Virus record (IMG/VR): IMGVR_UViG_3300032246_002821
Span: 118,954 to 182,953 of that record
Reading direction: 5' to 3' (one strand)
DNA length: 64,000 nucleotides
From: a virus
In this document: one piece after another, positions 24,695 through 43,803 of the stretch
How the letters are laid out: each line of letters opens with the position of its first letter
Numbering within the stretch: position 1 is the first letter of the stretch
Notes under the pieces: model-generated
What the model was told of the DNA's origin: nothing
What the model saw: the letters and a program-made list of their open reading frames with translations, nothing else
The model's database searches: none
Position numbers and translations under genes: made by a program

Positions 24695-24716
24695 GACATA
24701 TACAGGAGATTAGGCG

Positions 24717-25474: not shown

Positions 25475-25478
25475 CCGG

Positions 25479-25506: not shown

Positions 25507-25521
25507 CATAATATAGAGTTT

Positions 25522-25598: not shown

Positions 25599-25846
25599 AA
25601 TTAGAGTCGCTGGATTACTATAGAGACGGTCACCGCGGTCTGTCTCTTGTGCGTACCAGTGCTGGAGGCCCGTCAAACCAGCATAAACAAACGTGGCAGG
25701 AATTGGCAAGGGGAACTACTCGGCAGTCGCATCGCAAGATGTCGCAACGGAGCCCCTTGCCGTCGAGGCCAGAGGGATTGTAGGTGGACCTGTATTATAT
25801 GCCCTTGGGGTGTTGTGACTGGGCTTGTAACCTTCATAAATTTTAA
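25599..25846 (+). ncRNA. Structured RNA candidate 3
   Basis: A 248-base gap between tRNA-Asp and tRNA-Lys. Helices: AGAGAC/GTCTCT (25622-25647), TGCTGG/CCAGCA (25660-25683) and a long arm GGCAAGGGG/CCCCTTGCC (25705-25761, 9 bp) that encloses GCATC-GCAA-GATGT, a stem with a GNRA tetraloop. Small frames here have no coding character. The strong tRNA-Asp promoter upstream could transcribe it. No known RNA class recognised. Confidence 0.5.
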
Positions 25847-25922
25847 GAACCCATAGCTCAGTAGGTAGAGCACCTGACTTTTAATCAGGGTGTCGCCGGT
25901 TCGACCCCGGCTGGGTTCACCA
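25847..25922 (+). tRNA. tRNA-Lys (UUU)
   Basis: Acceptor GAACCCA/TGGGTTC, anticodon stem CCTGA/TCAGG with loop CTTTTAA (TTT), encoded CCA. Confidence 0.92.
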
Positions 25923-25923
25923 A

Positions 25924-26154
25924 TTATGCAAACTTGCTGGCTATGCTGATAGCAGTTATCAACGCAGCTTTAACGGCCATATCGTCAGCTTCTTCGTTCA
26001 AACGATCGGTTGCGATAAGGTCTTCCATAAGTTCAGCTGCTTCTTCAGGTGATAATGCGCCTGAGTTGCGTTGCTTCTGGATGTCTAGGGCCATCTTAGC
26101 GCGAGTTTCTGCCCAACCTGATCCGCAGTGTGCTAGTTCTTGTAGTGATGCCAT
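25924..26154 (-). CDS. Small helical phage protein
   Basis: A 76-residue helical, acidic protein: MASLQELAHCGSGWAETRAK, then LSPEEAAELMEDLIATDRLN and AVKAALITAISIASKFA. It resembles a small protein seen beside a lipoprotein gene in other marine phages. It shares a 1-base overlap with the lipoprotein gene upstream. The end abuts tRNA-Lys on the other strand. Confidence 0.7.
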   Translation of the reverse strand: MASLQELAHCGSGWAETRAKMALDIQKQRNSGALSPEEAAELMEDLIATDRLNEEADDMAVKAALITAISIASKFA

Positions 26155-26546
26155 TAGAATCTCCCTAAAACGGCTTTGCTTGATAGTTCAGCTTGTTTAA
26201 CTAATATGTCTTTCTTAATCCGGCAATAGGCAGCACTGGGTTCTTTTTCTTTGCTACGGTCTGCCCATTCGTTCACTGTCTTTTGCATAGGAGCGATCAG
26301 TTCCAGCACATCGTGTTGCAGATAGCCTTTGCTCTCGCTGTACAGTTCAAACCATTGAAGTTCTTTTTGTATTTGTACAGCTTGAAAGTTTTGTGTATCT
26401 TCACAGTTGATGTTAACAATCAGTTGTCTGGCTGTTATGATGCTCCTGGATTGGTTGTCATCCCAGAAGCTGGGCACGAATGTTGCTACCGTTGCATTGC
26501 AACCGGCTAATACTAAGAAACTCAATACCGCGATGATTTTTTGCAT
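26154..26546 (-). CDS. Phage lipoprotein
   Basis: A 130-residue lipoprotein: signal IIAVLSFLVLAGCNA with lipobox LAGC (Cys16). The mature region is mostly helical with a conserved-looking WFELYSESKGYLQHDVLELI and two further Cys. An outer-membrane-anchored role, for example in lysis (o-spanin-like) or superinfection exclusion, is possible, but no motif decides. It forms a two-gene minus-strand unit inside the tRNA island. Confidence 0.7.
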   Translation of the reverse strand: MQKIIAVLSFLVLAGCNATVATFVPSFWDDNQSRSIITARQLIVNINCEDTQNFQAVQIQKELQWFELYSESKGYLQHDVLELIAPMQKTVNEWADRSKEKEPSAAYCRIKKDILVKQAELSSKAVLGRF

Positions 26547-26577
26547 ACAGTATTTAGTTTTTGATAACTACCATAAC

Positions 26578-26653
26578 GCCCAATTAGCTCAGATGGTAGA
26601 GCAGTTGATTAGTAATCATCAGGTCGGCGGTTCGAATCCGTCATTGGGCACCA
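26578..26653 (+). tRNA. tRNA-Thr (AGU)
   Basis: Acceptor GCCCAAT/ATTGGGC, anticodon loop TTAGTAA (AGT), T-loop TTCGAAT, encoded CCA. The anticodon stem GTTGA/TCATC has one T-T mismatch and an A34 anticodon is unusual for Thr, so the tRNA may be slightly degenerate. Confidence 0.75.
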
Positions 26654-26668
26654 TTATTAAGGTTCGCT

Positions 26669-27787
26669 ATGTTCGTAAAATGCATCAGGATGGAAGCCTA
26701 TTTCGGAGCCAGTTATAACTTCGAAAGATTGAAGGAAAATATACAAAAAGATCTGGCACAGACAAGAGCAGCTGGTACTGAACCCTATTTCTTCCTCAGT
26801 TATTGTTGGGAGAATTTTCCTGAATTCTATTGGTACGACAATGTCACTCAAAATATCCGTAGCATATTGAAAGACCTGGGCATAACACATTATAAATTCG
26901 TGTTTCCCACCAGTTTTTTACACAATAGATATCCAGTGTACACTGGCCAGATAGACCAGTCGGATATGATCTTCCTGGAGTTTTTTGCTCTATACAGTTT
27001 CCATAAGATATTCGGAGATCAAAAGAAATATCGCAGCTGGAATTATTCGGGAGAGGTGTTGGCCAATCCTGCCTGGAACAGTGACAGCGATCGCGCCCTG
27101 TTGCTATTGGGCAAGATAGCCAAATTGAACCGTATGCCATTGCTGGCCGAATTCTACAGAGCCAATAACCTGTCGCGCATAGACTGGAGTTTGTATCTGA
27201 ACGATAACATCAAAGCCGATGCCAGGCATCTGGCCCCAGAATTTACAGATGAGGAATATGAAATATTCATATCCCAGATGACCAAGAGACTGGATCCCAT
27301 AGACGTGCAGATGCAGGAACGCAGCAGCCATTACTGGGGTTTTCCTTATGATGTAAACTTATACAAAAACACTTGCCTGAGTGTCATAAGCGAAACCAAC
27401 TTCATGTATAACCAGACAGTGTGGGTTACAGAAAAAACCTATCGTGCCATAGCCAATAGGCATCCTTTCGTCATGGCTGCGCCTCCTGGTAGTTTGAAAT
27501 ACATCAAGACCCTGGGTTTCAAGACTTTCGAAGAATATATGCAGATAACAGATTATGATGATATAGAATATGACAAGCAAAGATTGGGCAGTATAATGAC
27601 CAATACCATGTATTTTCTTGATACTAAACACACAAATCTAGAAGAGATAAATGCAGATGTGGAGCATAACTACCAGAACCTTATAGATTTCGTCGATAGG
27701 GAAATTTTAAAACTTGACAAAGTGCTGGATTCAGTGCATAATAGACAGGATAAAGAAACAAGTTGGTCCTTATTGGCCCAGATGTAA
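26669..27787 (+). CDS. TEK-type glycosyltransferase-like protein E
   Basis: A 372-residue member of the five-protein family, here alone in the tRNA island, 15 bases after tRNA-Thr. C-terminal block VWVTEKTYRAIANRHPFVMAAP, then IKTLGFKTFEEYMQITDYD. The N-terminal half (FFLSYCWENFPEF, HNRYPVYTGQIDQSDMIFL) differs from the others. AAGG lies 6 bases before ATG 26669; ATG 26690 is an alternative. It is probably expressed as part of the tRNA transcript. Function inferred from the motif only. Confidence 0.55.
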   Translation: MFVKCIRMEAYFGASYNFERLKENIQKDLAQTRAAGTEPYFFLSYCWENFPEFYWYDNVTQNIRSILKDLGITHYKFVFPTSFLHNRYPVYTGQIDQSDMIFLEFFALYSFHKIFGDQKKYRSWNYSGEVLANPAWNSDSDRALLLLGKIAKLNRMPLLAEFYRANNLSRIDWSLYLNDNIKADARHLAPEFTDEEYEIFISQMTKRLDPIDVQMQERSSHYWGFPYDVNLYKNTCLSVISETNFMYNQTVWVTEKTYRAIANRHPFVMAAPPGSLKYIKTLGFKTFEEYMQITDYDDIEYDKQRLGSIMTNTMYFLDTKHTNLEEINADVEHNYQNLIDFVDREILKLDKVLDSVHNRQDKETSWSLLAQM

Positions 27788-27789
27788 TT

Positions 27790-27864
27790 GCGGTTGTAGC
27801 TCAGTGGTAGAGCGTCACGTTGCCAACGTGAATGTCGTCGGTTCGACCCCGATCAGCCGCTCCA
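27790..27864 (+). tRNA. tRNA-Gly (GCC)
   Basis: Acceptor GCGGTTG/CAGCCGC, anticodon stem TCACG/CGTGA with loop TTGCCAA (GCC), encoded CCA. It starts 2 bases after the upstream stop codon. Confidence 0.9.
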
Positions 27865-27868
27865 ATTT

Positions 27869-27939
27869 TACTGCTGTCGGTGTTGATGGGAAACACAGAT
27901 GGACAACACTAGGACACCGTTCGAATCGGAGCAGCAGTA
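27869..27939 (+). tRNA. tRNA-like element 1 (degenerate or atypical)
   Basis: A 71-base element with an 8-bp acceptor-like stem TACTGCTG/CAGCAGTA, a T-arm with loop TTCGAAT (stem has one A-A mismatch) and a D-arm-like GTGT/ACAC hairpin, but no proper anticodon arm and CCT instead of CCA. An alternative central stem is GTGTTG/CAACAC. Either a decayed tRNA or a tRNA-like RNA. Confidence 0.4.
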
Positions 27940-27947
27940 CCTGATTA

Positions 27948-28021
27948 GCGGGCTTGGTATAGTGGTATTATGACAGCCTTCCAAGCTGACGAGACGGGTT
28001 CGATTCCCGTAGCCCGCTCCA
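27948..28021 (+). tRNA. tRNA-Gly (UCC)
   Basis: Acceptor GCGGGCT/AGCCCGC, anticodon stem CAGC/GCTG with loop CTTCCAA (TCC), encoded CCA. Confidence 0.9.
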
Positions 28022-28027
28022 AAATTT

Positions 28028-28101
28028 GCTGTCTTGGTGTAATGGAAGCACACGAGTTTGTGGAACTCGTAGCACAGGATCGATACCTGTAGACAGTGCC
28101 A
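28028..28101 (+). tRNA. tRNA-His (GUG)
   Basis: Acceptor GCTGTCT/AGACAGT, anticodon stem CGAGT/ACTCG with loop TTGTGGA (GTG), encoded CCA. Confidence 0.88.
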
Positions 28102-28106
28102 TATAA

Positions 28107-28189
28107 GGGGCGGAAGTATCAAGGTGATACCGTGGACTGTAAATCCACCGCTTATAGCACGCCTGGTTCGATTCCAGGACGCCCCACCA
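28107..28189 (+). tRNA. tRNA-Tyr (GUA)
   Basis: Anticodon stem GTGGA/TCCAC with loop CTGTAAA (GTA), long variable arm, T-arm CCTGG/CCAGG, encoded CCA. Confidence 0.9.
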
Positions 28190-28195
28190 CTACAC

Positions 28196-28203
28196 ACTAA
28201 ATA
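28196..28203 (+). promoter_or_regulatory. Possible late promoter
   Basis: ACTAAATA, 27 bases upstream of ATG 28230, weaker than the consensus. Confidence 0.35.
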
Positions 28204-28229
28204 AAAGGTCAATTGAACAAAGGTCATCA

Positions 28230-28874
28230 ATGAAAGGCAAGATAGCCTTATTCCTGCACCAGCCCAAATGCTCGGTACAATCGGGCAATGGAATTATGCA
28301 GGCATTGCATCCAGATTATCAGTTCAAGATCTTCACAAAACATCGAGTGGAAAAAGATTTCTTCGATGATGTGGATATGATCGCTGTGCCAGGAGGACTG
28401 GGAGACAGCGACAGCTATGCCAGTCTGATGCGTGAAAACGCTGGTCGCATACAGGACTTTGTTGCTAAAGGTGGCAGGTACTTGGGTATCTGTATGGGTG
28501 CTTACTGGGCAGGATATCACTATCTAGACATACTAGACGGCGTCCGAGCCTATCAATATATCACACGCCCCAACACAGACACTCGTAGACCACACGCCAA
28601 AGCCATAGACGTGGATTGGCTGGGACAACCAGAGAAGATGTACTTCTATGATGGCCCAGCATTGGTGGGCGATAAAAACAAGTTTACCACCGTCAGCACA
28701 TACGTAAACGGTGACGCCATGGCCATATATCAGGATCGTATAGGACTGATAGGTTGCCATCCTGAGGCAAATCTGCACTGGTACCAGGCATATCCCTATA
28801 TGCTCAAACACTGGCATAAAGGTGCTCATTACAGTTTGTTGAAAGATTTTGTTGACAAACTGATGCTTCAGTAG
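28230..28874 (+). CDS. Class I glutamine-amidotransferase-like (BPL_N-type) protein
   Basis: A 214-residue protein of the class I amidotransferase fold. Nucleophile elbow LGICMGAYWAG with Cys88, and GCHPEANLHW with His177 and Glu179, complete the Cys-His-Glu triad. AVPGGLGDSDSY near 52 and the overall length match the BPL_N-like group found near biotin-ligase-type proteins, whose substrate is not established. The last codons hold the -35 of the next tRNA promoter. Confidence 0.75.
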   Translation: MKGKIALFLHQPKCSVQSGNGIMQALHPDYQFKIFTKHRVEKDFFDDVDMIAVPGGLGDSDSYASLMRENAGRIQDFVAKGGRYLGICMGAYWAGYHYLDILDGVRAYQYITRPNTDTRRPHAKAIDVDWLGQPEKMYFYDGPALVGDKNKFTTVSTYVNGDAMAIYQDRIGLIGCHPEANLHWYQAYPYMLKHWHKGAHYSLLKDFVDKLMLQ

Positions 28875-28880
28875 TATTAT
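28852..28880 (+). promoter_or_regulatory. Sigma70-type promoter
   Basis: TTGACA (28852-28857), 17 bases, TATTAT (28875-28880), 9 bases before tRNA-Met. Confidence 0.8.
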
Positions 28881-28889
28881 AAGGAATAT

Positions 28890-28966
28890 TGCGGGGTAGA
28901 GAAGTGGTCATCTCGTTAGGCTCATAACCTGAAGATCGGAGGTTCGAATCCTCCCCACCGCAACCA
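28890..28966 (+). tRNA. tRNA-Met (CAU), first
   Basis: Anticodon stem TTAGG/CCTGA with loop CTCATAA (CAT), T-arm GGAGG/CCTCC, end ACCA. The acceptor TGCGGGG/CACCGCA has one G-A mismatch. Initiator, elongator or Ile2 identity is not decided. Confidence 0.85.
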
Positions 28967-28971
28967 AGTTA

Positions 28972-29049
28972 CTCGGTGTAGCGCAGTCTGGCTAGCGCAT
29001 CTGGTTTGGGACCAGAGGGTCGGGAGTTCGAATCTCTCCACCGAGACCA
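28972..29049 (+). tRNA. tRNA-Pro (UGG)
   Basis: Acceptor CTCGGTG/CACCGAG, anticodon stem TCTGG/CCAGA with loop TTTGGGA (TGG), encoded CCA. The 3' end of the antisense radical SAM gene lies within it. Confidence 0.9.
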
Positions 29050-30218
29050 AATAAAGCAGCATACTCAGGCATCATTTGGGCAAAGTTTTCGCCTCGTAGT
29101 TGGTCCAGTTTGCTGACGGTAGTTATAAAACTATCCTTTTTGCTAGCCCAGTCAGTGGGTTCATTTGCTAAAAATCTCAGTGTGCAATCACGCTGATCGA
29201 TCCAGCTTTGAACGTACTGACTGGGCTTGTGTGCAAGCAGCTTATCACGCACAGCCTGTTTTATATCTGGTGGCAGATAGCATATATTTGCGTCAGCCTT
29301 GTCTGTGACGCGGTTTGTAAATCCAATGATGTAGCCCAGATCGCTGAAAAACTCGAATGCTTCTGGAATATAAAATACATTATGGCTCATTGTACAGTAT
29401 TGCACTTGAACGGACAGATTATCATATTTGGCAAAATCTGTAGTGTAGCGTTGTAGATTCTCCAGCACGGTCGCCCACTGGCTACCAGCCCTGATATAGT
29501 CATTGTGAGCACCTACACCATCTATGCTATATCCCAATGACCCACTTTTGAATTTGCTCATTTTATCGGCTAAGTCAGGTTTGTATATGGTACCATTGGT
29601 GTGCATCTGTACGTCTTGCGTGGGTATACCACTGTCCAAGATCTTATATGTCAATGGATGTAGCAATGGTTCTCCACCATACAAGTCAAAGAATATAATA
29701 CTGTCGTGCCATTCAGCCAGAGTATCTTCTAACTCAGTGTTGTTGATATAGCTGGTTTCATAACTGACAAACTTTTGTAACCAGGTTTTGAACGGCACAG
29801 CTGGTTGTTCTAAATTGTAAGCGTCTTTGTACCATTGAGTGCTGCTATATGGATTACAACTGCGACAGGCACAGTTGCATTTGTTGCCGTGCTTTAATAT
29901 CAAGATCCTGGGTTGATCAGGCAATGACTCTACATCTGCAAGCAGGCGATTGTATTTTTGCCTGACGCTTTGGTTGCCAGCTTTTTCGTTGTTCCAGCAG
30001 TTGGAACAATAAGGGTTGGGAATTCCCTTAGCCAGCGTATTGAGAAATTTACTTCTGCTTTCACTATTCCAGGCCCGTTTCAATGAACCTGTGTCCAATG
30101 TAATAGGTTTACCACTGCTGTCTTTGAGATAAAGGCTGTTGTAATTACATGGAGTCACTCGTCCACTCATATCCAGGTTTAGAGTTATTTCTGCTAATTT
30201 GCACTTGATGGGTTCCAT
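28992..30218 (-). CDS. Radical SAM protein (twitch-type), reads into tRNA-Pro
   Basis: A 408-residue radical SAM enzyme. The 4Fe-4S motif C-x3-C-x2-C is C114, C118, C121 (KCNCACRSCNPYS). An N-terminal Cys-containing region (TPCNYNSLY, NPYCSNCW) and FDLYGGEPLLHPLTY, MHTNGT and GYSIDGVG follow, as in twitch/SPASM-type proteins. The last 20 residues (GEIRTPDPLVPNQMR) are simply antisense tRNA-Pro, so the original C-terminus was probably lost. I chose ATG 30218 (MEPIKCKLAE) from a set of longer readings. Substrate unknown. Confidence 0.75.
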   Translation of the reverse strand: MEPIKCKLAEITLNLDMSGRVTPCNYNSLYLKDSSGKPITLDTGSLKRAWNSESRSKFLNTLAKGIPNPYCSNCWNNEKAGNQSVRQKYNRLLADVESLPDQPRILILKHGNKCNCACRSCNPYSSTQWYKDAYNLEQPAVPFKTWLQKFVSYETSYINNTELEDTLAEWHDSIIFFDLYGGEPLLHPLTYKILDSGIPTQDVQMHTNGTIYKPDLADKMSKFKSGSLGYSIDGVGAHNDYIRAGSQWATVLENLQRYTTDFAKYDNLSVQVQYCTMSHNVFYIPEAFEFFSDLGYIIGFTNRVTDKADANICYLPPDIKQAVRDKLLAHKPSQYVQSWIDQRDCTLRFLANEPTDWASKKDSFITTVSKLDQLRGENFAQMMPEYAALFGLGGEIRTPDPLVPNQMR

Positions 30219-30234
30219 ACTGATATATATTAAT

Positions 30235-31287
30235 ATGACCGTTTTTCCCGATAAAAATCTGTCAGGATTAGTATGTACAGAACCGTTCCGTACGGTCAAT
30301 ATAGATCCCGTGGGCAATGTACAACTCTGTGGATGCAGTGATTGGATGCCACAGATAGCCGGCAACATAAACAATGCCAGCTTGCAAGACATACTCAACA
30401 GCCCAAAAGCTCAGCTAATGCGTGAGAGCATCAGAGATGGCAGTTACAGATATTGTAACGCAGATAAATGTGGTGTTATAAACAACAAGTGGTTGATACC
30501 CCACACAGATGCCCCTGGTCATAATCTCGATCCAGAATGGCGGTTATACAGGAAAGAAAGCAGTAAAAAAATACCTACCAAATATTTTATAGCTGGTGAT
30601 AAGACCTGTAATCTCAGTTGTCCCAGTTGTAGAAACACAGTGATTAAAAATACCATTGGCGACACTGGTAACAATATCAGAGTGATGAATCTGTTAAACC
30701 AGAACGTGTTTGCCGGCAAAAGCCATTTGCCTATTGAAATAATGTTGAGCACTAGCGGAGAGATTTTTGCCAGCAAATTCCTTTTGGAATTTTTACAAAC
30801 TTTCCCTATAAACAATTACCCAAATGTTATTTTTCACTTACAAACCAATGGTTTGTTGTTAAAGAAAAACTGGCATTTACTTGCTAATATACATAAAAAT
30901 ATCAAAAGTATCACGGTGACTACTGATGGTTGCACCGCAGATACATATGAACATCTGCGTCGTGGAGGTAGATTTACAGATATACTGGACAATCTCAAGT
31001 ATATGCAACAATTAAAACAACAGCATAACTTCGTGACACACAATCGTATGGTAGTCCAGCTGGCCAATTACCAGCAGATAACAGATTTTTATCACTGGAG
31101 CAAGCAACTGGGATTCGATACTGTGGAATACAGCAGATTGCAGGATTGGAAAACATATACCGGTCCGGAATTCGCAGAACTCGATGTATTGAACCCGGAA
31201 CATCAAGCATATAATGCTGCTACGGATAGTATCAAGGAACTATTATCAGAGGGTTCTAGTGTGGTACTTTTGGGGTTTAGTATCTAG
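30235..31287 (+). CDS. Radical SAM/SPASM-like protein, divergent
   Basis: A 350-residue radical SAM protein starting MTVFPDKNLSGLVC. N-terminal Cys-rich region (NVQLCGCSDW, YCNADKCGV), core motif CNLSCPSC in DKTCNLSCPSCRN, then FHLQTNGLLL and TVTTDGCTADTYE. It is divergent from the other radical SAM gene with only 16 bases between the start codons. Its stop touches tRNA-Arg. Function unknown; perhaps it acts with the partner on the same peptide. Confidence 0.7.
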   Translation: MTVFPDKNLSGLVCTEPFRTVNIDPVGNVQLCGCSDWMPQIAGNINNASLQDILNSPKAQLMRESIRDGSYRYCNADKCGVINNKWLIPHTDAPGHNLDPEWRLYRKESSKKIPTKYFIAGDKTCNLSCPSCRNTVIKNTIGDTGNNIRVMNLLNQNVFAGKSHLPIEIMLSTSGEIFASKFLLEFLQTFPINNYPNVIFHLQTNGLLLKKNWHLLANIHKNIKSITVTTDGCTADTYEHLRRGGRFTDILDNLKYMQQLKQQHNFVTHNRMVVQLANYQQITDFYHWSKQLGFDTVEYSRLQDWKTYTGPEFAELDVLNPEHQAYNAATDSIKELLSEGSSVVLLGFSI

Positions 31288-31364
31288 GCACCCGTAGCTC
31301 AGCGGAACAGAGCTTCGCGCTTCGAACGCGACGGTCGGGAGTTCGAATCTCTCCGGGTGTGCCA
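31288..31364 (+). tRNA. tRNA-Arg (UCG)
   Basis: Acceptor GCACCCG/CGGGTGT, anticodon stem TCGCG/CGCGA with loop CTTCGAA (TCG), encoded CCA. It abuts the upstream stop codon. Confidence 0.9.
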
Positions 31365-31374
31365 AAAATAGTTG

Positions 31375-31402
31375 TTGACATATGTTAACAATCATATATA
31401 CT
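31375..31402 (+). promoter_or_regulatory. Sigma70-type promoter
   Basis: TTGACA (31375-31380), 16 bases, TATACT (31397-31402), before tRNA-Asn and the last tRNA run. Confidence 0.8.
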
Positions 31403-31419
31403 GATGATATAAAGTTTAT

Positions 31420-31496
31420 TCCGAGTCGGTCACAAGGTGGGACAGCAGACTGTTAATCTGTTCATCAGGTTGGTTCGATTCCAACACTCGGAGCCA
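31420..31496 (+). tRNA. tRNA-Asn (GUU)
   Basis: Acceptor TCCGAGT/ACTCGGA, anticodon stem CAGA/TCTG with loop CTGTTAA (GTT), encoded CCA. Confidence 0.9.
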
Positions 31497-31500
31497 AGTT

Positions 31501-31567
31501 TAGATGTGCGAGGAAGGCGATATGTTTGAACAACTGCTCGCCGCAGGTTCGACTCCTGCCGCATCTA
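31501..31567 (+). tRNA. tRNA-like element 2 (atypical)
   Basis: A 67-base element: 8-bp acceptor-like stem TAGATGTG/CGCATCTA, a perfect T-arm GCAGG/CCTGC with loop TTCGACT, and one central stem GCGAG/CTCGC in place of separate D and anticodon arms. No CCA. Same plan as element 1. Confidence 0.4.
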
Positions 31568-31578
31568 ATCTAATAAAT

Positions 31579-31655
31579 GCCCCAGTAGTCCAATTGGTAG
31601 AGGCACTGGTTTTAGGTACCAGGTGGTGGGGGTTCGAGTCCCTCCTGGGGCACCA
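31579..31655 (+). tRNA. tRNA-Leu (UAG)
   Basis: Acceptor GCCCCAG/CTGGGGC, anticodon stem CTGGT/ACCAG with loop TTTAGGT (TAG), encoded CCA. The variable loop is short (GTGGT), unlike the long arm of ordinary Leu tRNAs. Confidence 0.8.
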
Positions 31656-31662
31656 CTAACGA

Positions 31663-31738
31663 TGGCGTGTAGCTCAGCTGGAAGAGCATTCGACCGATAA
31701 TCGAAAGGTCACTGGTTCGAGACCAGTCACGCCAACCA
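31663..31738 (+). tRNA. tRNA-Ile (GAU)
   Basis: Acceptor TGGCGTG/CACGCCA, anticodon stem TTCGA/TCGAA with loop CCGATAA (GAT), encoded CCA. Confidence 0.9.
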
Positions 31739-31744
31739 AGATAT

Positions 31745-31821
31745 GCTAGCAGGGCGGTAGTGGAATCGCGCCCGCCTCATAAGCGGGTCCAAAGCTGGAT
31801 CGAAGCCAGCTGTTAGCACCA
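31745..31821 (+). tRNA. tRNA-Met (CAU), second
   Basis: Acceptor GCTAGCA/TGTTAGC, anticodon stem CCCGC/GCGGG with loop CTCATAA (CAT), encoded CCA. The C/G-rich anticodon stem could suit Met or Ile2. Confidence 0.88.
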
Positions 31822-31829
31822 ATAGTAGT

Positions 31830-31903
31830 TGGGATGTCGTCTAAAGGTAGGACAACGGATTTTGATTCCGTTTATCGTGGTTCGAATCCATGCATCCCAG
31901 CCA
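31830..31903 (+). tRNA. tRNA-Gln (UUG)
   Basis: Acceptor TGGGATG/CATCCCA, anticodon stem ACGGA/TCCGT with loop TTTTGAT (TTG), encoded CCA. Confidence 0.9.
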
Positions 31904-31919
31904 AGCTATATATGATAAA

Positions 31920-32009
31920 GGAGAGGTGGTCGAGTGGTTGATGGCTCTGGTCTTGAAAACCAGCGAGGGTTCAAGCCCTCCGTGGGTTCGAATCCCACCC
32001 TCTCCGCCA
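31920..32009 (+). tRNA. tRNA-Ser (UGA)
   Basis: Acceptor GGAGAGG/CCTCTCC, anticodon stem CTGGT/ACCAG with loop CTTGAAA (TGA), long variable arm GAGGG/CCCTC, encoded CCA. Confidence 0.92.
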
Positions 32010-33177: not shown

Positions 33178-33443
33178 ATACAGAAATACACATAAAAGAA
33201 CCAGTCAAATTACATCAAAATTGGTACATAAAGATACAGACCAACTTTTTCCTGCCACTGCAATTCATGAACAGCGAAGTGGTGGAACACACCGTGGGCC
33301 GCCCATTAAGAGACTGGCTGGACGATTGCCTCATAGGTGATTATAATCTGAATATGCACTTCAACACTGGCGATCCCTATTACAACTTATTGTTAGAAAA
33401 CGAAGCAGACGTCTTGACCGTCATGATGAAATATGGTAATTGA
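33174..33443 (+). CDS. Small phage protein (89 aa)
   Basis: An 89-residue protein starting MNTEIHIKEPVKLHQNWYI, beta-rich in its first half. The end overlaps, tail to tail, the end of the minus-strand 33421 gene by 23 bases. No recognised domain. Confidence 0.65.
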   Translation: MNTEIHIKEPVKLHQNWYIKIQTNFFLPLQFMNSEVVEHTVGRPLRDWLDDCLIGDYNLNMHFNTGDPYYNLLLENEADVLTVMMKYGN

Positions 33444-34044
33444 CAAAAACTTTCACATCGCTAGTTTTATAATCTTGAAATACAGCAGGTTTCTTCAAAC
33501 CTAAATACTCACACAACAATTGATTATCGGATATTTGCCCACAGATCCGACTGAATTCCAACAATTTTGAGTTTTGGTTGTCTATATGAACTGCCATGGT
33601 TTTTAAATCTCTATAATAAGAATAACAAGGGTATGTGATATCAAAATGTCCACACCTTACCCACCATCCTAGACAAGCATCATCTGGTCTATGAGCGATT
33701 ATTATGGGACAATCAGGCCAGGTTTGTCTGATAAAATCCAAATGATAACTGAACACGTGGCTTTTTATCAATCTCACACCTGTAGCACTGAAGGGTTTAT
33801 CGAATTCTTGTTCCAATTCTTCTTTAGTATATAGATTCAAATCACAGAAATCACTTCCAAATTCCATCTGTGGATCCCAGTAGGCACCCATATGCATCAA
33901 TAAGTTTTCGCCCCAGGCGCTGTGCCAATATTGCCTGGCAGGCGATTGGTCGCTGGTATCGAAGCTATCACTGGTGTATAGATTTTTAGCCACACTGCTC
34001 CATTTGCTGCCAGGTGCGCCTGCCAGGAAAACATATTTGAACAT
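33421..34044 (-). CDS. P-loop protein, sulfotransferase/kinase-like
   Basis: A 207-residue protein starting MFKYVFLAGAPGSKWSS: the GAPGSKWS loop is a Walker A-like motif as in sulfotransferase- or nucleotide kinase-like phage proteins. Further features: RLIKSHVFSYHLDFI and IIIAHRPDDACLGWWV, the latter resembling the 3'-phosphate-binding part of PAPS enzymes. It is the last gene of the symporter operon. ATG 34044 follows directly on the DUF2061 gene. Confidence 0.65.
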   Translation of the reverse strand: MFKYVFLAGAPGSKWSSVAKNLYTSDSFDTSDQSPARQYWHSAWGENLLMHMGAYWDPQMEFGSDFCDLNLYTKEELEQEFDKPFSATGVRLIKSHVFSYHLDFIRQTWPDCPIIIAHRPDDACLGWWVRCGHFDITYPCYSYYRDLKTMAVHIDNQNSKLLEFSRICGQISDNQLLCEYLGLKKPAVFQDYKTSDVKVFVNYHISS

Positions 34045-34247
34045 CACATCCTCTTCAATATAGGCAACCACAACCGTTCGTGACAATAGTACAGGAAGAT
34101 CTTTGTGAAGAATTCTATACCTGATATGGCCAGTGCGATATGTGGTTGCCCTGTTATCAGATAACTTATCACGAATGTATCCAGTGTGCCTACCACACGC
34201 CAGCTGACTGTTTTGATCAATAACAACAGATCTCTGGTGAATTTCAT
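34044..34247 (-). CDS. DUF2061-type membrane protein
   Basis: A 67-residue protein matching the DUF2061 pattern: SWRVVGTLDTFVISYLITG, then SGIEFFTKIFLYYCHERLW. It has two short membrane helices. In bacteria the family often sits in sulfur-assimilation gene clusters, which fits P-loop sulfotransferase-like neighbours on both sides of the operon. Role unproven. Confidence 0.8.
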   Translation of the reverse strand: MKFTRDLLLLIKTVSWRVVGTLDTFVISYLITGQPHIALAISGIEFFTKIFLYYCHERLWLPILKRM

Positions 34248-34933
34248 ATGGAATATCTCACGTCAGGTCCGGCTCTTTGTAATAAAAACCTGGTGCGATC
34301 TGATTTACGTCCGGTTATTTGCAATGTAGGTCTGATGCTCCTGCTGGCATTGGCCGTTGCGTGTGGCACATTGGGCCAGTCGAATATGTGTGCGTCTCCT
34401 GCTCGCCAACGATCATAGATGTAATTTCCATACATATAGAATTGTCCCGGTTCCCAATCTTCCAACATGACTGTCAGACGTATGACATTGTCGGGATTTT
34501 CATCTATGTCCCACAGCTTGTCTATGTGCAGATTGAACATATCTCCCAGCTTTTGGATATGTATGCGTATCTTGGGCTTCTCTATCTGGAAGTAATCTAC
34601 CATCTTCTGCAACGTGGGATATCCTGTGAGATCGTCCCACATATGAGTGATGGTCATCTTGGGATCTCCGCCCACAGCAGCTATGTCGCGTTCTTCCTGT
34701 GCCAGCATAGGGCTGTAGTTAGGGCTATCTTTTCCATAAAATTTTCGTGTCTCCCAATTCATAGGAGCAGCTTTGTGCTTGATATCGTCGATCTCTGACT
34801 GCCAGTCTCCGGTAAATCTACCTAAACGTGTGAACCATTCACCATCAGCATCTTTCCGCCATTTGTCGAAATGATAGTTGCTTCGTTCTACAGTCCATTC
34901 CCAACTGCTATCGTACTCATCTAGATTCTTCAT
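34244..34933 (-). CDS. 2OG-Fe(II) oxygenase-like (Asp-beta-hydroxylase-like)
   Basis: A 229-residue protein. Iron-ligand region IHIQKLGDMFNLHIDKLW with H-x-D, and HIFDWPNVPHATANASRSIRPTLQITG with the distal His and the Arg that binds 2-oxoglutarate. YMYGNYIYDRW lies between. A conserved phage family of this type has unknown substrate. It overlaps both neighbours (4 and 17 bases). Confidence 0.75.
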   Translation of the reverse strand: MKNLDEYDSSWEWTVERSNYHFDKWRKDADGEWFTRLGRFTGDWQSEIDDIKHKAAPMNWETRKFYGKDSPNYSPMLAQEERDIAAVGGDPKMTITHMWDDLTGYPTLQKMVDYFQIEKPKIRIHIQKLGDMFNLHIDKLWDIDENPDNVIRLTVMLEDWEPGQFYMYGNYIYDRWRAGDAHIFDWPNVPHATANASRSIRPTLQITGRKSDRTRFLLQRAGPDVRYSI

Positions 34934-35570
34934 CGTTTTTCCTCAACCATGGTGGTGTGTTAATATTTCTTACGTGGTCATCTAACCAATAGGGATCCGC
35001 CGCGTGTATGTATTTGCTGTTGGCATCGTCCTTCAAGATGTCATCTATGCAAGGATCAGTATCAGCTACAGGAAAATCCAGCCAATGACCCAAGCTCTTG
35101 ACATACTGGCGCCTGTACAGATACAACAGCTCTTGGCTTACGAAGAACGGAGGAGTCTGGAACCAGCGTATCAGCTGTGGTAGTGTGCCCCAGCTGGGTC
35201 CTCCTCGCACTCTGGTCTGTTGATGTGTCAGTATGTTCTGATCACGACCAATTATCACAGGCTGTACCGTGATGCCTGCTGATTGGGCTGCGTGAATAAA
35301 ATCAAACAGAGGAGGTATGCGAGGCATCCAGTCCTGTATGTAAGGACAGCTGATGCTTGTGACAGCATACTGTTTGCCCTGCATCATCTCTGTCGTGATT
35401 GTATCAGGATCCCGCCAATAGTCATTGAAAGGTTCCTGTATGTGTGGTATGAAGTAACCATCTGGTTCCAGCAGTGCTTGCCAGCCCAGCACATCTGTAT
35501 GTAGGCTGAATATCTTGCTGAACAGATGATTTCCCGAGCCTTGTGGCCCCACAAGGACCAGTATTTTCAT
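34917..35570 (-). CDS. P-loop protein, sulfotransferase-like
   Basis: A 217-residue protein with Walker A-like VGPQGSGNHLFSKIF at 7-21. The middle has VIIGRDQNILTHQQTRVRGG, fitting the 3'-phosphosulfate-binding arginine region of sulfotransferase-like proteins. It is unlike the 33421 protein beyond the loop. ATGA overlap with the symporter gene suggests a shared operon. Confidence 0.65.
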   Translation of the reverse strand: MKILVLVGPQGSGNHLFSKIFSLHTDVLGWQALLEPDGYFIPHIQEPFNDYWRDPDTITTEMMQGKQYAVTSISCPYIQDWMPRIPPLFDFIHAAQSAGITVQPVIIGRDQNILTHQQTRVRGGPSWGTLPQLIRWFQTPPFFVSQELLYLYRRQYVKSLGHWLDFPVADTDPCIDDILKDDANSKYIHAADPYWLDDHVRNINTPPWLRKNDEESR

Positions 35571-37039
35571 ACTTCTGTAGCTGCCAACTTGTCTGTGTTA
35601 TTGTCCGCGTAACTGATGATAACGCTCAGCAATCCGCTGCCGAACACTGCCAGCATGGTACCTGCGAATATCATATCCTTGCCGCCGCCCCAGTACTGTC
35701 CATACACATACAGGGGGAAGCCCACGAGGAACGCACTGAGTATACCCCAGAACATCCCACGCTCTGTGATGGCGTTCTCATTCCAGATGCTGATCATAAT
35801 GGGCAGCCACACACAGGCTCTCATTATACCGAAGAACAGGAATATGGTCTGCAAGGTCATTCCTGGCCAATTGGCCATAATTAACCCAGCTATCACCAGT
35901 ATCATCATTCCTGTCCTGGCATAACTGATGCTGTGTTCTTCTGTGCTATTGAAACGATTATAGACATCGTGTCCTGCTATGTTGGCTGCACTACTCAGTT
36001 GGCTATCCAACACACTGACCAGACCGGCAAACAGCATGAACAGATACAACATACTGCACCAGGCTGGCAACAGACTGCCCACTGTTACGATATTGGTATA
36101 ACCTACCAGTGCTGCTGGTATCTGGTATTTTAGGCCTGCTGCCAAGAAACCCAGCACACCACTCATTACAGGGATGCAAAGGAATATCATTGCGCCTATC
36201 CAGAATGCCTTACGCACCTGTTGCTGATCGATGGCAAACGCACGTTGATAGAAACTGTTGTCGCCCCAGGGGCCTCCCATATGTCCTATGAATGTGACGA
36301 ATCCCACGCCCATGAAAACACCAGTGGCGAAGTCTGTGCCTAATATGTTGGCACCTTTGCCTGTGATGCCGCCCAGTCCTGACAACACTATGTCCCAGCC
36401 ACCTGCGCTGCTGACCGCACTGGGTACCAATACCACTAATCCTATCCACAACACACTGAGTTTCAATACTTCGGTGACAACACTGGCTTTCAAACCGTTG
36501 CCGAAAGCATACACCAGTGCCAGTACTGCCAGACAATAACTCACGATGTGATAGTCCAAGCCTGTCAGCACTTCCACGCTCTTGCTGCCTGCCAACACAT
36601 TGATAGCGAACGCACACACTGCCAGCATGGCCATCTCCACACTGAGCAGTGCCTGCACACGTGGACTGAATTTTTCACGGAAATATCCCGCGATAGTGAA
36701 TCCATCTGGCTTGCGTTCTCTCAGCAGTTTAGCGAAATATCCGAACAAGAACAACGTGAGGAAATTACCAATGGTGAACCAGAACAAGCCTACCAGACCG
36801 TTCTGATATGCCTGTTGTGCGCTGATGAACATACCGGGCGCCCATACCCAGGCTGCACCCACGCTGAGTGCTCCGGGCAACAGGCCTACACCACGGCGTG
36901 CTACCAGATAGCTTTCTTTATTGGTATTGAAACCAGTGGCAAAATAATATGTCAGTGTCAGTGCCACTAAGGCATATGCTGCCAGAACCATACTGCCCGT
37001 TTCAGGAGCAAATAAGGGAAATAATTTTGAGAAGTCCAT
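35567..37039 (-). CDS. SLC5-type sodium/solute symporter
   Basis: A 490-residue integral membrane protein with about 13 hydrophobic segments, of the sodium:solute symporter (SSS/SLC5) family. Seen: an N-terminal YFATGFNTNKESYLVARR, GAAWVWAPGMFISAQQAYQNG (substrate-site helix 1 region), GFVTFIGHMGGPWGDNSFYQRAFA, a family signature, and SVLDSQLSSAANIAGHDVYN (helix 8, Na+-site region with Ser). Length and signatures are complete. The substrate (sugar, urea, proline, acetate or other) cannot be read. A full-length symporter is uncommon in a phage. Confidence 0.85.
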   Translation of the reverse strand: MDFSKLFPLFAPETGSMVLAAYALVALTLTYYFATGFNTNKESYLVARRGVGLLPGALSVGAAWVWAPGMFISAQQAYQNGLVGLFWFTIGNFLTLFLFGYFAKLLRERKPDGFTIAGYFREKFSPRVQALLSVEMAMLAVCAFAINVLAGSKSVEVLTGLDYHIVSYCLAVLALVYAFGNGLKASVVTEVLKLSVLWIGLVVLVPSAVSSAGGWDIVLSGLGGITGKGANILGTDFATGVFMGVGFVTFIGHMGGPWGDNSFYQRAFAIDQQQVRKAFWIGAMIFLCIPVMSGVLGFLAAGLKYQIPAALVGYTNIVTVGSLLPAWCSMLYLFMLFAGLVSVLDSQLSSAANIAGHDVYNRFNSTEEHSISYARTGMMILVIAGLIMANWPGMTLQTIFLFFGIMRACVWLPIMISIWNENAITERGMFWGILSAFLVGFPLYVYGQYWGGGKDMIFAGTMLAVFGSGLLSVIISYADNNTDKLAATEV

Positions 37040-37091
37040 AAAAATTCCTTTGCAAGTGAAAATTACTTTTTATTTAGTGATTTTTTCTTTA

Positions 37092-37099
37092 CATAAATA
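37092..37099 (+). promoter_or_regulatory. T4-type late promoter
   Basis: CATAAATA 15 bases before ATG 37115, in the divergent gap between the symporter operon and the structural genes. On the other strand CTAAATAA lies upstream of the symporter gene. Confidence 0.55.
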
Positions 37100-37114: not shown

Positions 37115-37858
37115 ATGGAAAAAAATATGAATATCAAAATTTATAACCATCTATTGGAAAAATTATCTGATTGTTTCGCTTTGGAAAAATATCAGGGAAT
37201 CCAGGATAGTTTCGATAAAGAAACCATCGTGGATCAGCTGCCCTGGACTCCCAAACGCTGGCAAAATTTCCAAGAGCAAATCAATCAGACATTTGATCTG
37301 GATGTCAATTATACCGGATCATTACAGGACATCGTGGATGATATAGATGAAAAGTACAAAACTAGATTCTGGGGCGAAGGTGTCTGGCAGCCCAGGACCA
37401 ACCAATTCCAATACACAGGCTGGCAGATAGCAGAGGAGATCAACAAGCGCAATCCTGCTGCTGTGCTGGATGTGGGCTGCGGCTACAATCAGTTCAAGAG
37501 CCAGATAGCCAATCTCACAGGCATAGACAAATACAACAACAATGCCGATTTCATGGTGGGCATAATGGAGTACAACGTGCCGGAAAAGTATGACGCCATC
37601 ATAGTGTTCGGTAGCATCAACTTCGGCACTTACACAGACATAGGTGAACAATTTGCCAAAGTTTTCAGTCTACTTGCTCCTGGCGGCAGGATCTATGTCA
37701 GGGCCAATCCTGGTATCAGCCACAAGAACGGTCCCTGGATAGACATTTTTGCCTATGACTTCGAGACAGCAGACAAGATAGCCAGGGAAAACCTGGCCCG
37801 TATGGTAACCTTCAAGAAAGACAACGGCGACAGATTGTATTTCGTATACGAAAAATAA
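37115..37858 (+). CDS. SAM-dependent methyltransferase
   Basis: A 247-residue class I methyltransferase. SAM-binding motif AAVLDVGCGYNQFKSQ near residue 115, the acidic loop TGIDKYNNNADF, YDAIIVFGSINFGTYTD and LAPGGRIYVRANPG (the motif after beta 5). The family methylates small molecules, lipids or proteins; the substrate is unknown. It is followed by the late-hairpin switch of the neck-region gene. Confidence 0.8.
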   Translation: MEKNMNIKIYNHLLEKLSDCFALEKYQGIQDSFDKETIVDQLPWTPKRWQNFQEQINQTFDLDVNYTGSLQDIVDDIDEKYKTRFWGEGVWQPRTNQFQYTGWQIAEEINKRNPAAVLDVGCGYNQFKSQIANLTGIDKYNNNADFMVGIMEYNVPEKYDAIIVFGSINFGTYTDIGEQFAKVFSLLAPGGRIYVRANPGISHKNGPWIDIFAYDFETADKIARENLARMVTFKKDNGDRLYFVYEK

Positions 37859-37895: not shown

Positions 37896-38978
37896 ATGCC
37901 CAGATTAAGTCTATACCGTGAAAATCACAGCAACGATTACAAATTCCAAGACAAACGCATCCAGGAAGTGTTCACTGCCGGCGGCGTGGGTATAAACGTA
38001 CACAAATATCTGGGTCCAAAAGATAACGGTGCCACCACAGATTACACCGAACCACAGTATGCCAATCAGAGTGAAAAGAACATACAGGATTTGCTGTTCC
38101 TGGAAAACCGTGATCGCAAATATGATCTGGACGTTTACAACCTGCGTGGCCACTATACCATTCAGGACATAGATTTCAATCTGGCTCAGTTCGGACTGTT
38201 CATCAACAACGACACATTATACATCACATTCCACTACAATGATATGGTGGCCCGACTGGGACGCAAGATAATGCCAGGCGATGTATTCGAGATGCCGCAT
38301 CTGAAAGATTATCATCCACTGGACGACACTATACCAGCAGCATTGAAAAAATACTACGTGGTGCAAGAAGCCACCCGTGCAGCTGAAGGTTATGCACCCA
38401 CTTGGCACTATCATCTGTGGCGCTGCAAAGTGGTACCAATGGTGGATGGTCAGGAATATAAAGACATACTAGATCAACCAGTGAGCGACGACAGCACCTT
38501 GAATTTGCGCGACATAATGAGCAATTACAACCAGAATATACAAATCAATGATGCTGTGGTCGTACAAGCAGAAACAGATGTGCCTTTCAGTGGTTACAGC
38601 ACCACTAGCCTGTATATACTACCCAGCAACAGTGCCATAAGTCCCACACAGGGCATACAGGGTTACCTGACAGGTGATGGCAACGCACCTAATGGTTTGA
38701 GTGTCACTGCCGACGTGGCATTTCCTGTGCATCCCACACTGGGCCAATATGTACTACGCACAGACTATTTTCCCAATCGCCTGTTCCGTTACGATGGACA
38801 ACGTTGGATAGCCATACAGGATGTACAGCGCCAGAATATGACAGGTGCCAACAACAAGAGCTTGCTGGGCACATTCATAAACAACAGCGCAACAACTCAT
38901 CTGAGCAATGGTTTCGTCACCAGCCAGAAACAAGCACTGAGCAACTTGCTAAAAATAGCACCAGACAAGCTAGGATAA
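37896..38978 (+). CDS. Conserved neck-region structural protein
   Basis: A 360-residue structural protein. The first 150 residues (ENHSNDYKFQDKRIQEVFTAGG, GINVHKYLGPK, IQDLLFLENRDRKYDLDVYN, FGLFINNDTLYITFHYNDMV) match a family that lies directly upstream of the tail-completion gene in T4-like marine phages and is sometimes called a neck protein. It may correspond to neck gene 14, but the T4 protein is too different for me to decide. The C-terminus ends KQALSNLLKIAPDKLG. Confidence 0.7.
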   Translation: MPRLSLYRENHSNDYKFQDKRIQEVFTAGGVGINVHKYLGPKDNGATTDYTEPQYANQSEKNIQDLLFLENRDRKYDLDVYNLRGHYTIQDIDFNLAQFGLFINNDTLYITFHYNDMVARLGRKIMPGDVFEMPHLKDYHPLDDTIPAALKKYYVVQEATRAAEGYAPTWHYHLWRCKVVPMVDGQEYKDILDQPVSDDSTLNLRDIMSNYNQNIQINDAVVVQAETDVPFSGYSTTSLYILPSNSAISPTQGIQGYLTGDGNAPNGLSVTADVAFPVHPTLGQYVLRTDYFPNRLFRYDGQRWIAIQDVQRQNMTGANNKSLLGTFINNSATTHLSNGFVTSQKQALSNLLKIAPDKLG

Positions 38979-38981
38979 TCA

Positions 38982-40376
38982 ATGGGTCAGTTTTTTTACG
39001 ACAAACAGATACGTAGATTTGTCAACCAGTTTGTAAGATTTTTCAGTGAGATGTACGTGGAGTACGGCAACGATCTCAACGGCAATCCAGTGTTGTACCG
39101 CGTACCTGTGCGCTATGCAGATACAAACAGGCAAGTGGCTGCTATACTCAAACAGAACAGCGACAACAGCGTCAACAGTGTGCCTGCCATGGTTGTCTAT
39201 ATTACCAAGGTGGATTATGACCGCACACGTATGCAGAATCCCACACACGTGGATCAGAGACAGATCAGGACCAGGGCCAGCGATCCCACTACTGGTACAG
39301 TGGGAACCACGCAAGGACAGGCTTTGAGCGTAGACAGGCTGATGCCTGTGCCATACAAGATAACGATGGTAATGGAATTGTGGACCACGAATTTTGATCA
39401 GAAATTGCAGTTGTGGGAGCAGATATGCAGCCAATTCAATCCGGATATGGAGATACAGAGCACAGATAACTGGCTGGACTGGACCAGCCTCAGTTATATC
39501 CTATTGACTGCCACCAATTGGACCACACGCAACATACCTGTGGGCACAGACGATCCCATAGATGTTGCCACACTCACTTTCGAATTACCCATATGGCTCA
39601 CCACTCCTGCCAAGCTGAAAAGGCTGGGCGTCATACAGAGCGTGGTGGGCAGCGTTTACGATGCCAACGGCGATCTGATACAGGCTGTGGTGGACCAGAT
39701 CAATCTATTGGGAGACAGGCAGTATTTCACGCCCACTGGCTATCAGATAGTGGTGAACAATGGCGTTGCAACCCTGTTCAACAGGGCAGGACCGGTGTTG
39801 AACAACACGAATTTCACCATACCCACAACCAACAGCAACCAGATCAAATGGGCACCTGTGATAAACAGTTTCGGCGAGATCAAGAACGGTTACAGTCTCT
39901 TGTATCTCACAGACAGCATCACACAGCGATTGGTCACAGGTACCATCAGTTACAATCCCACCAATGAATACGAACTTTTATTCACTGTAGATCCAGCCAC
40001 GGTTCCCACAAACAACGTCAGTGCCATAAATGCCGTGGTAGATCCGGCTGTGAACGGTCCAGGAGTAGGCTTGCCCGCTGCTGCGATAGGACAACGATAC
40101 CTGCTGGTAAATGATCTAGGTAATGCCAACAACCAGGCAGGAAACAGCCCACTGGCCTGGCAGAATTCAGACGGCAGCGGTCCCATAGCACAGGCCAACG
40201 ACATCATACAGTATGATGGCAATAATTGGAACATAGATTTGCATCCTGTCAGCACCACGCCCACTAAGTATGTTACAAATACCTATTCAGGTATCCAATA
40301 TATGTGGAACGGCGAACAATGGCAAAAAAGCTGGGAAGGACTGTATCCCGAAGGATTCTGGTCCATCGTGATCTGA
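38982..40376 (+). CDS. gp15: gp15-like tail-sheath terminator
   Basis: A 464-residue protein whose first 220 residues match the T4 gp15 type: FYDKQIRRFVNQFVRFFSEM at the start, MPVPYKITMVMELWTTNFDQ, EQICSQFNPDMEIQS and FELPIWLTTPAKL. gp15 caps the contractile tail and stabilises the sheath. The C-terminal 240 residues are an extension absent from T4 gp15 (272 residues), ending in VGLPAAAIGQRYLLVN and QYMWNGEQWQKSW, a pattern like the fibre modules of this phage. It starts 3 bases after the preceding stop. Confidence 0.75.
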   Translation: MGQFFYDKQIRRFVNQFVRFFSEMYVEYGNDLNGNPVLYRVPVRYADTNRQVAAILKQNSDNSVNSVPAMVVYITKVDYDRTRMQNPTHVDQRQIRTRASDPTTGTVGTTQGQALSVDRLMPVPYKITMVMELWTTNFDQKLQLWEQICSQFNPDMEIQSTDNWLDWTSLSYILLTATNWTTRNIPVGTDDPIDVATLTFELPIWLTTPAKLKRLGVIQSVVGSVYDANGDLIQAVVDQINLLGDRQYFTPTGYQIVVNNGVATLFNRAGPVLNNTNFTIPTTNSNQIKWAPVINSFGEIKNGYSLLYLTDSITQRLVTGTISYNPTNEYELLFTVDPATVPTNNVSAINAVVDPAVNGPGVGLPAAAIGQRYLLVNDLGNANNQAGNSPLAWQNSDGSGPIAQANDIIQYDGNNWNIDLHPVSTTPTKYVTNTYSGIQYMWNGEQWQKSWEGLYPEGFWSIVI

Positions 40377-42328: not shown

Positions 42329-42838
42329 TTATACACCAGAAACATTTGTACTGGGAAATTGCCTTGTGGTACCTGGCCACACTATCCTCACAGCGCCGCC
42401 TGCACCGTTTCCACCTTTAACGCTCAAAAGCGTATTGTTATTTAGACCAGCACCCCCGCCACCACCATACAAACCGCCATCTCCCCCGATAGCAACACCA
42501 GCTAGCCCGCCAGCACCATTGCTGCCGTCCAGACCTCCCGAACCAGCTTTCCCACCAGCACCATAATTTATAAATGCTGTGCCTCCTGATCCACTTGTGC
42601 CTTGACCGAAGATACCTACACCACCACCACCGCCAGCACCCGCTGCTTTCAAATTATTATCGTTGTCTGCAGAACCACCAGCACCACCACCGCCACCCGT
42701 GCCAGCTAGACCATTGAAACTTCCGGGAGCAGACATGGATCCACCGGCTCCGCTATAACCGCCTGCGCCTCCACCGCCACCAGTAGTTTGGGCTGTGCTT
42801 GTGCCGCCTAAGCCACCGCCGTCACCCGTAATAGCCAT
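42329..42838 (-). CDS. Glycine-rich fibre tip protein
   Basis: A 169-residue protein with about 45% Gly, in runs such as GGGGGAGGYSGAGG, a likely polyglycine-II bundle like phage adhesin tips (compare gp38 of T-even phages). It ends GGAVRIVWPGTTRQFPSTNVSG, a signature of such tips. It is fused end to end (1-base overlap) to the Hint-domain protein. Confidence 0.75.
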   Translation of the reverse strand: MAITGDGGGLGGTSTAQTTGGGGGAGGYSGAGGSMSAPGSFNGLAGTGGGGGAGGSADNDNNLKAAGAGGGGGVGIFGQGTSGSGGTAFINYGAGGKAGSGGLDGSNGAGGLAGVAIGGDGGLYGGGGGAGLNNNTLLSVKGGNGAGGAVRIVWPGTTRQFPSTNVSGV

Positions 42839-43803
42839 TATTGGTAATCTCCTATATCCAATACTATATCTTTTTTCTGCCAGGACAAGTAATCAAAGTC
42901 ATCTTCCCTAGGCCAGCCTGTCACACAATAACCATTCACGTAATAGGTATGGCTGCCAGATAATACAAAATTATATAGTGGTGTATTATAGTCGAATATT
43001 TCTTTCTGGATACTGGTTACAGTTTTGCTCCCCTGTCTGTGCAGCAACTGGGTTCCCACAGTAAGTTTTTTAATTTTTTCTCTAGGATTATCCAAACCAC
43101 GATTTTTAAGAGGTATCACAGAACCATCTCCCAGTTTACAGGCATAGGAGCGTCCCCATACATCGCAGATGGCATCCACATCACAACTGTAAAATTTTTT
43201 ATCTGGACTCATGTGAGGATGATCATCATAGGTATAGTGCTCATCGTTTATCTTATACATATATCTAGCAGCCACAATGGGATTATCCAGGGCGATCACT
43301 TTATTGATCTCACCGAAAGCTCCCAATACATACTCTCCCACATAAACATTTTCGATTCTCCTCAAAGAACCATCTGCCATAGTTATCAGAGACCCCGCAA
43401 GGAAACATCCACCTCCACCACAAACATATGTACTACCTCCTGTGCCTCCCCCTGCGCTTACTGTACCTGTGCTGTTGAAATATGATGTTCCTCCGTTGCC
43501 GCCGGCATTGGATTGACTGGGTGCGCCGGTGCCACCAGCCCCCACTACTACAGCATAGCTTCGTCCAGGAATCACAGCGATGTTGTTTTTATAGGCCAGA
43601 TCGCCGCCATTGCCTGCGAAACCGAAATATACACCCGCATTAGTGACGGAACCACCACCCCCACCACCTATAGCTACCACGCTCACACTGTTGACGCCTA
43701 TGGGTGCTATCCAGCTGTAAGTTCCAGGCGTGGTGTAGGATTGGCTACCTGCTCCTGCAGTCTTGGCGCTGGCTGCTGCTGCCATCAATTTAGATATGGG
43801 CAT
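42838..43803 (-). CDS. Glycine-rich fibre protein with Hint domain
   Basis: A 321-residue protein. Residues 22-130 are a glycine-rich fibre part (SYTTPGTYSWIAP...AIGGGGGG). From Cys133 (GGCFLAGSLITMADGS) a Hint (Hedgehog/intein) domain follows: HPHMSPDKKFY as block B, and YNFVLSGSHTYYVNGYCVTG as block F. The N-terminal Cys nucleophile is present, but the usual Asn-Cys end of a splicing intein is not, so autocleavage is likelier than splicing. Similar Hint fibres occur in other marine phages. Confidence 0.75.
   Translation of the reverse strand: MPISKLMAAAASAKTAGAGSQSYTTPGTYSWIAPIGVNSVSVVAIGGGGGGSVTNAGVYFGFAGNGGDLAYKNNIAVIPGRSYAVVVGAGGTGAPSQSNAGGNGGTSYFNSTGTVSAGGGTGGSTYVCGGGGCFLAGSLITMADGSLRRIENVYVGEYVLGAFGEINKVIALDNPIVAARYMYKINDEHYTYDDHPHMSPDKKFYSCDVDAICDVWGRSYACKLGDGSVIPLKNRGLDNPREKIKKLTVGTQLLHRQGSKTVTSIQKEIFDYNTPLYNFVLSGSHTYYVNGYCVTGWPREDDFDYLSWQKKDIVLDIGDYQ

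Follow-up and report, generated by a model that had tools for sequence, protein, structure and literature searches.

A phage-encoded SSS/SLC5-family symporter with an altered Na2 site in a T4-like lineage

Phage genes for transport have mostly been viewed as nutrient importers borrowed from the host. In viruses, genes of the SSS family have been reported in bulk from estuarine contigs, where they were counted as osmolyte-related viral genes (PMC13288924), and our literature search on phage symporters returned such bulk counts only. The mechanism of the family is better described. At its Na2 site, the ion is bound by two hydroxyls of Ser or Thr residues on cTM8 together with three carbonyls of the backbone (PMC7918813). 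In CHT1 (SLC5A7), one of the Na+/choline symporters, which include the bacterial sfCHT, Na2 consists of S346 and S347, both of which are needed, the S347A change abolishing transport, and Na3 consists of D188, D349 and S350 (PMC11589582). The family also includes sensor proteins, and a proton gradient stimulates CbrA, an SSS member that has no Na2 residues (PMC7918813). Closest in sequence and fold to the protein described below, among solved proteins, are the DUR3 urea-proton symporters (PDB 9j7c, 9vim, 9x5u).

The symporter gene analysed here was found in a window of 64,000 nucleotides, the whole stretch of DNA under study, which covers bases 118954-182953 of a virus record of 182,953 bases in total. 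In contrast to the borrowed importers, it is old, phage-specific within the proteins sampled and strongly constrained, it occurs in two lineages with different operon partners, and its ion site, the defining element of the family's mechanism, is altered. What is added here is a phage-specific clade of two lineages, a lineage-specific Na2 change with a Na3-type site retained, a partner gene exclusive to the symporter, and a PAPS-reductase/ParB operon that is fixed in the sister lineage.

Gene, fold and family

The initial annotation had described a full-length SLC5 protein of 490 residues, and this was confirmed. The gene and its signals are as follows.

35567-37039, minus strand: SSS/SLC5-family symporter (P0001), an uninterrupted 490-aa ORF with an ATG start and no internal stop
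37045-37051, minus strand: Shine-Dalgarno-like AAAGGAA read from the sequence, 5 nt upstream of the symporter ATG
35567-35570, minus strand: ATGA in the sequence, where the symporter stop overlaps the start of the next gene

The Pfam SSF model PF00474 matched with 84.5 bits (cut-off 22.8) over positions 1-404 of its 406, that is, over its full length. The TIGR00813 superfamily model scored 114.6, under its own cut-off of 184, whereas the phage family PHROG_20720, which carries no functional annotation, matched with an E-value of 2e-83. The pattern that we take to be PROSITE SSS signature 1 did not match, breaking at Asn181, and what is presumably signature 2 was missed by all phage copies including this one; both mismatches weigh little. 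Two scans of IMG/VR revealed 18 other contigs with copies of the symporter, 53-66% identical. Among symporter relatives, dN/dS (Nei-Gojobori) was 0.04-0.08 for the pairs where it was computable, and the gene is under purifying selection.

An AlphaFold2 model made from 20 relatives (mean pLDDT 83.8, pTM 0.84) showed a LeuT-type fold, with TM-scores of 0.7-0.83 against DUR3, CHT1, SGLT, SiaT and NIS. The best PDB folds were DUR3 (TMq 0.82, E 2e-14) and CHT1 (0.78-0.83), followed by the three others. DUR3 was also the best PDB sequence match of the family profile (1e-29), and it shares with the phage symporter the W-x-W-A motif of cTM1 and the D-N of cTM6. E. coli PutP and ActP belong to the same superfamily and have the core in common with the phage protein, but they sit in other branches and are devoid of the W-x-W-A motif. 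In an IQ-TREE phylogeny, the phage symporter fell into the DUR3-side clade with a support of 99/97.

Identity to any characterised transporter, DUR3 included, is nevertheless about 20%, and the phage protein is devoid of the long C-terminal tail of DUR3. In the tree, DUR3 is on a long branch, joined at 82/50 only to the nearest cellular row (L029). Because of this low identity and weakly supported join, kinship with DUR3 can give no more than a weak hint of the substrate.

Phage neighbourhood of the gene

The record encodes a terminase, a tail sheath, a UvsX-like recombinase, a gp32-like single-strand binding protein and a helicase, and the window contains 22 tRNA genes. Among these tRNA genes, which lie at 22803-32009, are scattered radical-SAM genes and one glutamine-amidotransferase-like gene (28230-28874). 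The symporter is surrounded by the following genes.

33421-34047, minus strand: P-loop-like protein D (AGAPGSKWSSV), a widespread phage family
34044-34247, minus strand: DUF2061 small membrane protein of 67 aa (PF09834, 4.2e-23)
34244-34933, minus strand: 229-aa protein with a 2OG-Fe(II) oxygenase-like H-x-D...H...R pattern, no Pfam hit
34917-35570, minus strand: 217-aa P-loop protein B (GPQGSGNH), sulfotransferase-like by a weak fold match
37093-37099, plus strand: ATAAATA, a T4-late-promoter-like box 23 nt upstream of the divergent gene
37115-37858, plus strand: divergent methyltransferase-like gene
37896-40376, plus strand: two virion structural genes, the second tail sheath/stabilizer-like

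The symporter thus lies in a co-oriented five-gene run on the minus strand (33421-37039), and its ATGA overlap is with gene B, which has a P-loop-like GPQGSGNH N terminus; both the overlap and the membership in a genuine phage operon, as proposed in the initial annotation, were borne out. That annotation had also named a misjoin at 37040 as a reason to doubt the locus. Such a misjoin is unlikely, because the neighbouring genes recur around the symporter in the other contigs: the methyltransferase-like gene in 15 of 18, gene B in 16 of 18, and gene D and the oxygenase-like gene in 12 of 18 each. Flanks are shared on both sides of the symporter in several independent contigs, among them L003, L012 and L013, in which the cluster is followed by the same two virion genes.

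The neighbours tell little about function here, since the B, D, oxygenase-like and methyltransferase-like families are all widespread in viral contigs without a symporter; B alone was found in more than 500 viral loci. Protein B gave a sulfotransferase-like match (Foldseek E 3e-4, TM about 0.4), and in three contigs APS-kinase-like and cytidylyltransferase-like genes lie directly downstream of the symporter (L003:9464-10311, L012:6525-7348 and L018:9445-10256). A sulfation cassette was considered, and we claim no such link: the match to APS kinase extends over half of that domain, this genome has no such gene, and both B and D are families common in phages without the symporter. No PAPS reductase scored over the cut-off in the T4-like symporter contigs.

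A T4 late promoter for the symporter was rejected, as no consensus box is present near its start. ATAAATA boxes resembling T4 late promoters are found in the window at 37093, 37874, 54990, 57824, 61567 and 63009; such boxes lie 23-30 nt upstream of many virion and neighbouring genes, their total in the window not being above chance. Farther along, the gene at 42838-43803 encodes a glycine-rich tail-like protein whose C-terminal half is Hint/intein-type-like (CFLAGSLITMADGS...HTYYVNG). Curli secretion/fibre-like genes (CsgG-like and repeat proteins) are present in G000 at about 12,900-16,400 (L030), and curli-type genes have been reported for pelagimyophages (PMC7029224).

Partner gene and sister lineage

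A gene family of about 245 aa, called F hereafter, was detected at 18 IMG/VR loci (L003:7265-8014 and L005:7265-7999 among them), and occurs there only just upstream of the T4-like symporter. At 16 of these loci F runs directly into the symporter, often overlapping it, and the two other contigs end inside F. It is present in 15 of the 19 symporter contigs. F had no match in Pfam or PHROG, and hhalign revealed no mutual homology between the P-loop families B, D and F. It was not detected in the present genome, using a 60-aa piece of F as the query. Within IMG/VR, F is a dedicated and exclusive partner of the symporter lineage, though undetected in this genome.

The nearest known relative outside the T4-like lineage is a gut-phage protein, 37% identical, of PHROG_20720 (gut/Firmicutes-type phages; e.g. 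MT836198). A scan with it gave at least 87 IMG/VR contigs, of which 79 loci were analysed. Downstream of the symporter come a PAPS-reductase-like gene (immediately adjacent in 48 loci) and a ParB-like gene (65), then another gene of each kind (PAPS-reductase-like in 67, ParB-like in 63) and, after these, terminase-like genes. The operon is thus nearly fixed over about 5 kb around the symporter (L010 and L401-L480), and it differs from the surroundings of the T4-like copies; no paper describing it was found. Some of these contigs appear from their names to be isolate genomes, so that the sister lineage could be testable in culture.

T4-like and gut-phage symporters formed one clade (98/95) relative to 13 sampled cellular proteins, adjoining one protein from an alphaproteobacterial MAG. 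The symporter is therefore a phage gene on a branch that is phage-specific within the proteins sampled, the cellular part of which was limited and mostly from Pseudomonadota. Solute symporters had been called rarely phage-borne, a statement that does not hold given at least 18 contigs in this lineage, at least 87 in the sister lineage, a family already present in PHROG_20720, and the bulk SSS report (PMC13288924). Taken as a whole, the initial reading stands in that the gene is real, phage-encoded and probably a transporter, and falls in that such genes are neither rare nor, in this case, demonstrably sodium-driven.

Ion site and predicted function

The residues that bear on ion coupling were located by alignment to CHT1 and other SSS proteins.

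36470-36472, minus strand: codon of E190, the acidic residue of the Na3-type site on cTM5 (CHT1 D188)
36011-36016, minus strand: codons of S342-V343, the Na2 hydroxyl pair on cTM8 (CHT1 S346/S347)
36002-36007, minus strand: codons of D345-S346, Na3-type site, conserved (CHT1 D349/S350)

The second Na2 hydroxyl is lost: Val343 takes its place in all 19 lineage copies, and the first, S342, is kept in 16 and is Ala in 3. The two cTM8 hydroxyls of Na+-coupled SSS transporters are therefore not both present, and the claim that all family signatures are intact fails at this position; a disrupted Na2 site, which had been named as a point against the initial reading, is partly what was found. In contrast, the cTM5 acidic residue and the cTM8 Asp/Ser and Ser of the Na3 site are matched, in the alignment, by E190 (19/19), D345 (19/19) and S346 (18/19). 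All 19 copies retain W64/W66, W258, E190, D345 and the LeuT-fold core as a whole, in spite of their 53-66% identity.

The Na2 pair is S-T in 76 of 79 copies of the sister phage lineage (3 were not scored) and in the cellular relatives that share the cTM1 motif; the loss is therefore specific to the T4-like lineage, which has it in common with one MAG protein (L021). Since a side chain is replaced in the pair that binds Na+, the symporter is probably not an ordinary sodium-driven nutrient pump, as judged from the alignment. Loss of the hydroxyl does not mean loss of transport, because the pair is S-A in DUR3 and A-V in E. coli ActP, a working symporter. DUR3 has Ser/Ser at the positions of E190 and D345; as it is devoid of these acidic residues, its mode of coupling need not carry over to the phage protein.

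Choline was rejected as the predicted substrate, since most of the CHT1 cage is missing. Of W62, Y91, W141 and W254 (plus Y67), the phage protein retains the two tryptophans W64 and W258, and N92, A143 and G69 replace Y91, W141 and Y67, in a comparison that leaves CHT1 W406 outside the alignment. Kinship points weakly to small polar nitrogen compounds.

On sequence grounds, transport as such is the most likely function, and we consider it rather probable that the protein is a working secondary-active SSS/SLC5 importer of the DUR3 side, active in the infected cell and coupled to a cation at the Na3-type site or to H+. The role in infection that we infer would be as follows. The phage would make the LeuT-fold symporter and place it in the host cytoplasmic membrane during infection, where a small polar, probably nitrogen-containing solute would be moved inward by alternating access. 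Coupling would be to a cation at E190/D345/S346, either one Na+ or H+ via the carboxylate pair, and not to Na+ at the canonical Na2 site. Urea, guanidino or polyamine-type compounds may be the first substrate candidates, because DUR3 is the closest solved relative, a weak pointer. If the protein does transport, knowing its substrate would reveal a shortage in infected cells or a requirement of a phage modification pathway, and the lineage would offer a natural test of SSS carriers without a canonical Na2 site.

More tentatively, phages may have evolved their own SSS subfamily, importing one metabolite for phage-encoded chemistry, with the ion coupling re-wired in the T4-like branch. The carriers would be T4-like phages and the terminase-linked PAPS-reductase/ParB operons of the second group, and the metabolite would be used, for instance, to modify nucleic acids or the surface instead of nourishing the host. 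T4-like symporters would then have given up Na2 and would work from the carboxylate-rich Na3 site.

We regard as unlikely that the gene is an auxiliary metabolic gene of the ordinary sort, encoding a Na+/solute symporter of host type that imports nutrients or compatible solutes during infection and binds Na+ via backbone carbonyls and S342. The intact fold and family, the retention of S342 in most copies of a site that also uses three backbone carbonyls (PMC7918813), the A-V pair with which ActP works and the osmolyte-related counting of estuarine viral SSS genes (PMC13288924) are all consistent with it. However, the second ligand is Val throughout and the first is Ala in three copies, loss of the equivalent CHT1 hydroxyl (S347A) abolishes transport (PMC11589582), and S-T is the pair found in cellular relatives that share the cTM1 motif. 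Moreover, no close host copy was found among 399 Pseudomonadota genomes, of which 4 matched the family profile at 1e-25, and the symporter is therefore not a recent pick-up.

Still less probable is a protein that has lost transport and does something else in the membrane; it might, for example, exclude superinfecting phages, block or remodel a host receptor, or act as a sensor. The degenerate Na2 site, the existence of SSS sensor proteins (PMC7918813) and the location in a run of phage accessory genes would fit such a role, but the conserved tryptophans, E190, D345 and LeuT-fold core, together with the low dN/dS, fit a transport cycle better than a scaffold, and there is no fused sensor domain. 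That the locus stems from faulty assembly, or from a host gene wrongly attached to a phage contig, might be suspected from the abundance of SSF symporters in bacteria (control search) and the strand change at 37040, but it is refuted, as far as the data allow, by the recurrence of the gene in independent contigs with matching neighbours on either side, by a GC content of 0.50 and a composition equal to those of the remaining genome, and by the phage-only clade.

A urea/polyamine context was rejected as a general feature, an agmatinase being present in one contig (G416) only and in none of the other 18 records. This gene, of the agmatinase/arginase family (PF00491, 273 bits), lies at L002:1493-2398 in the phage contig, with the symporter 5.6 kb downstream of it.
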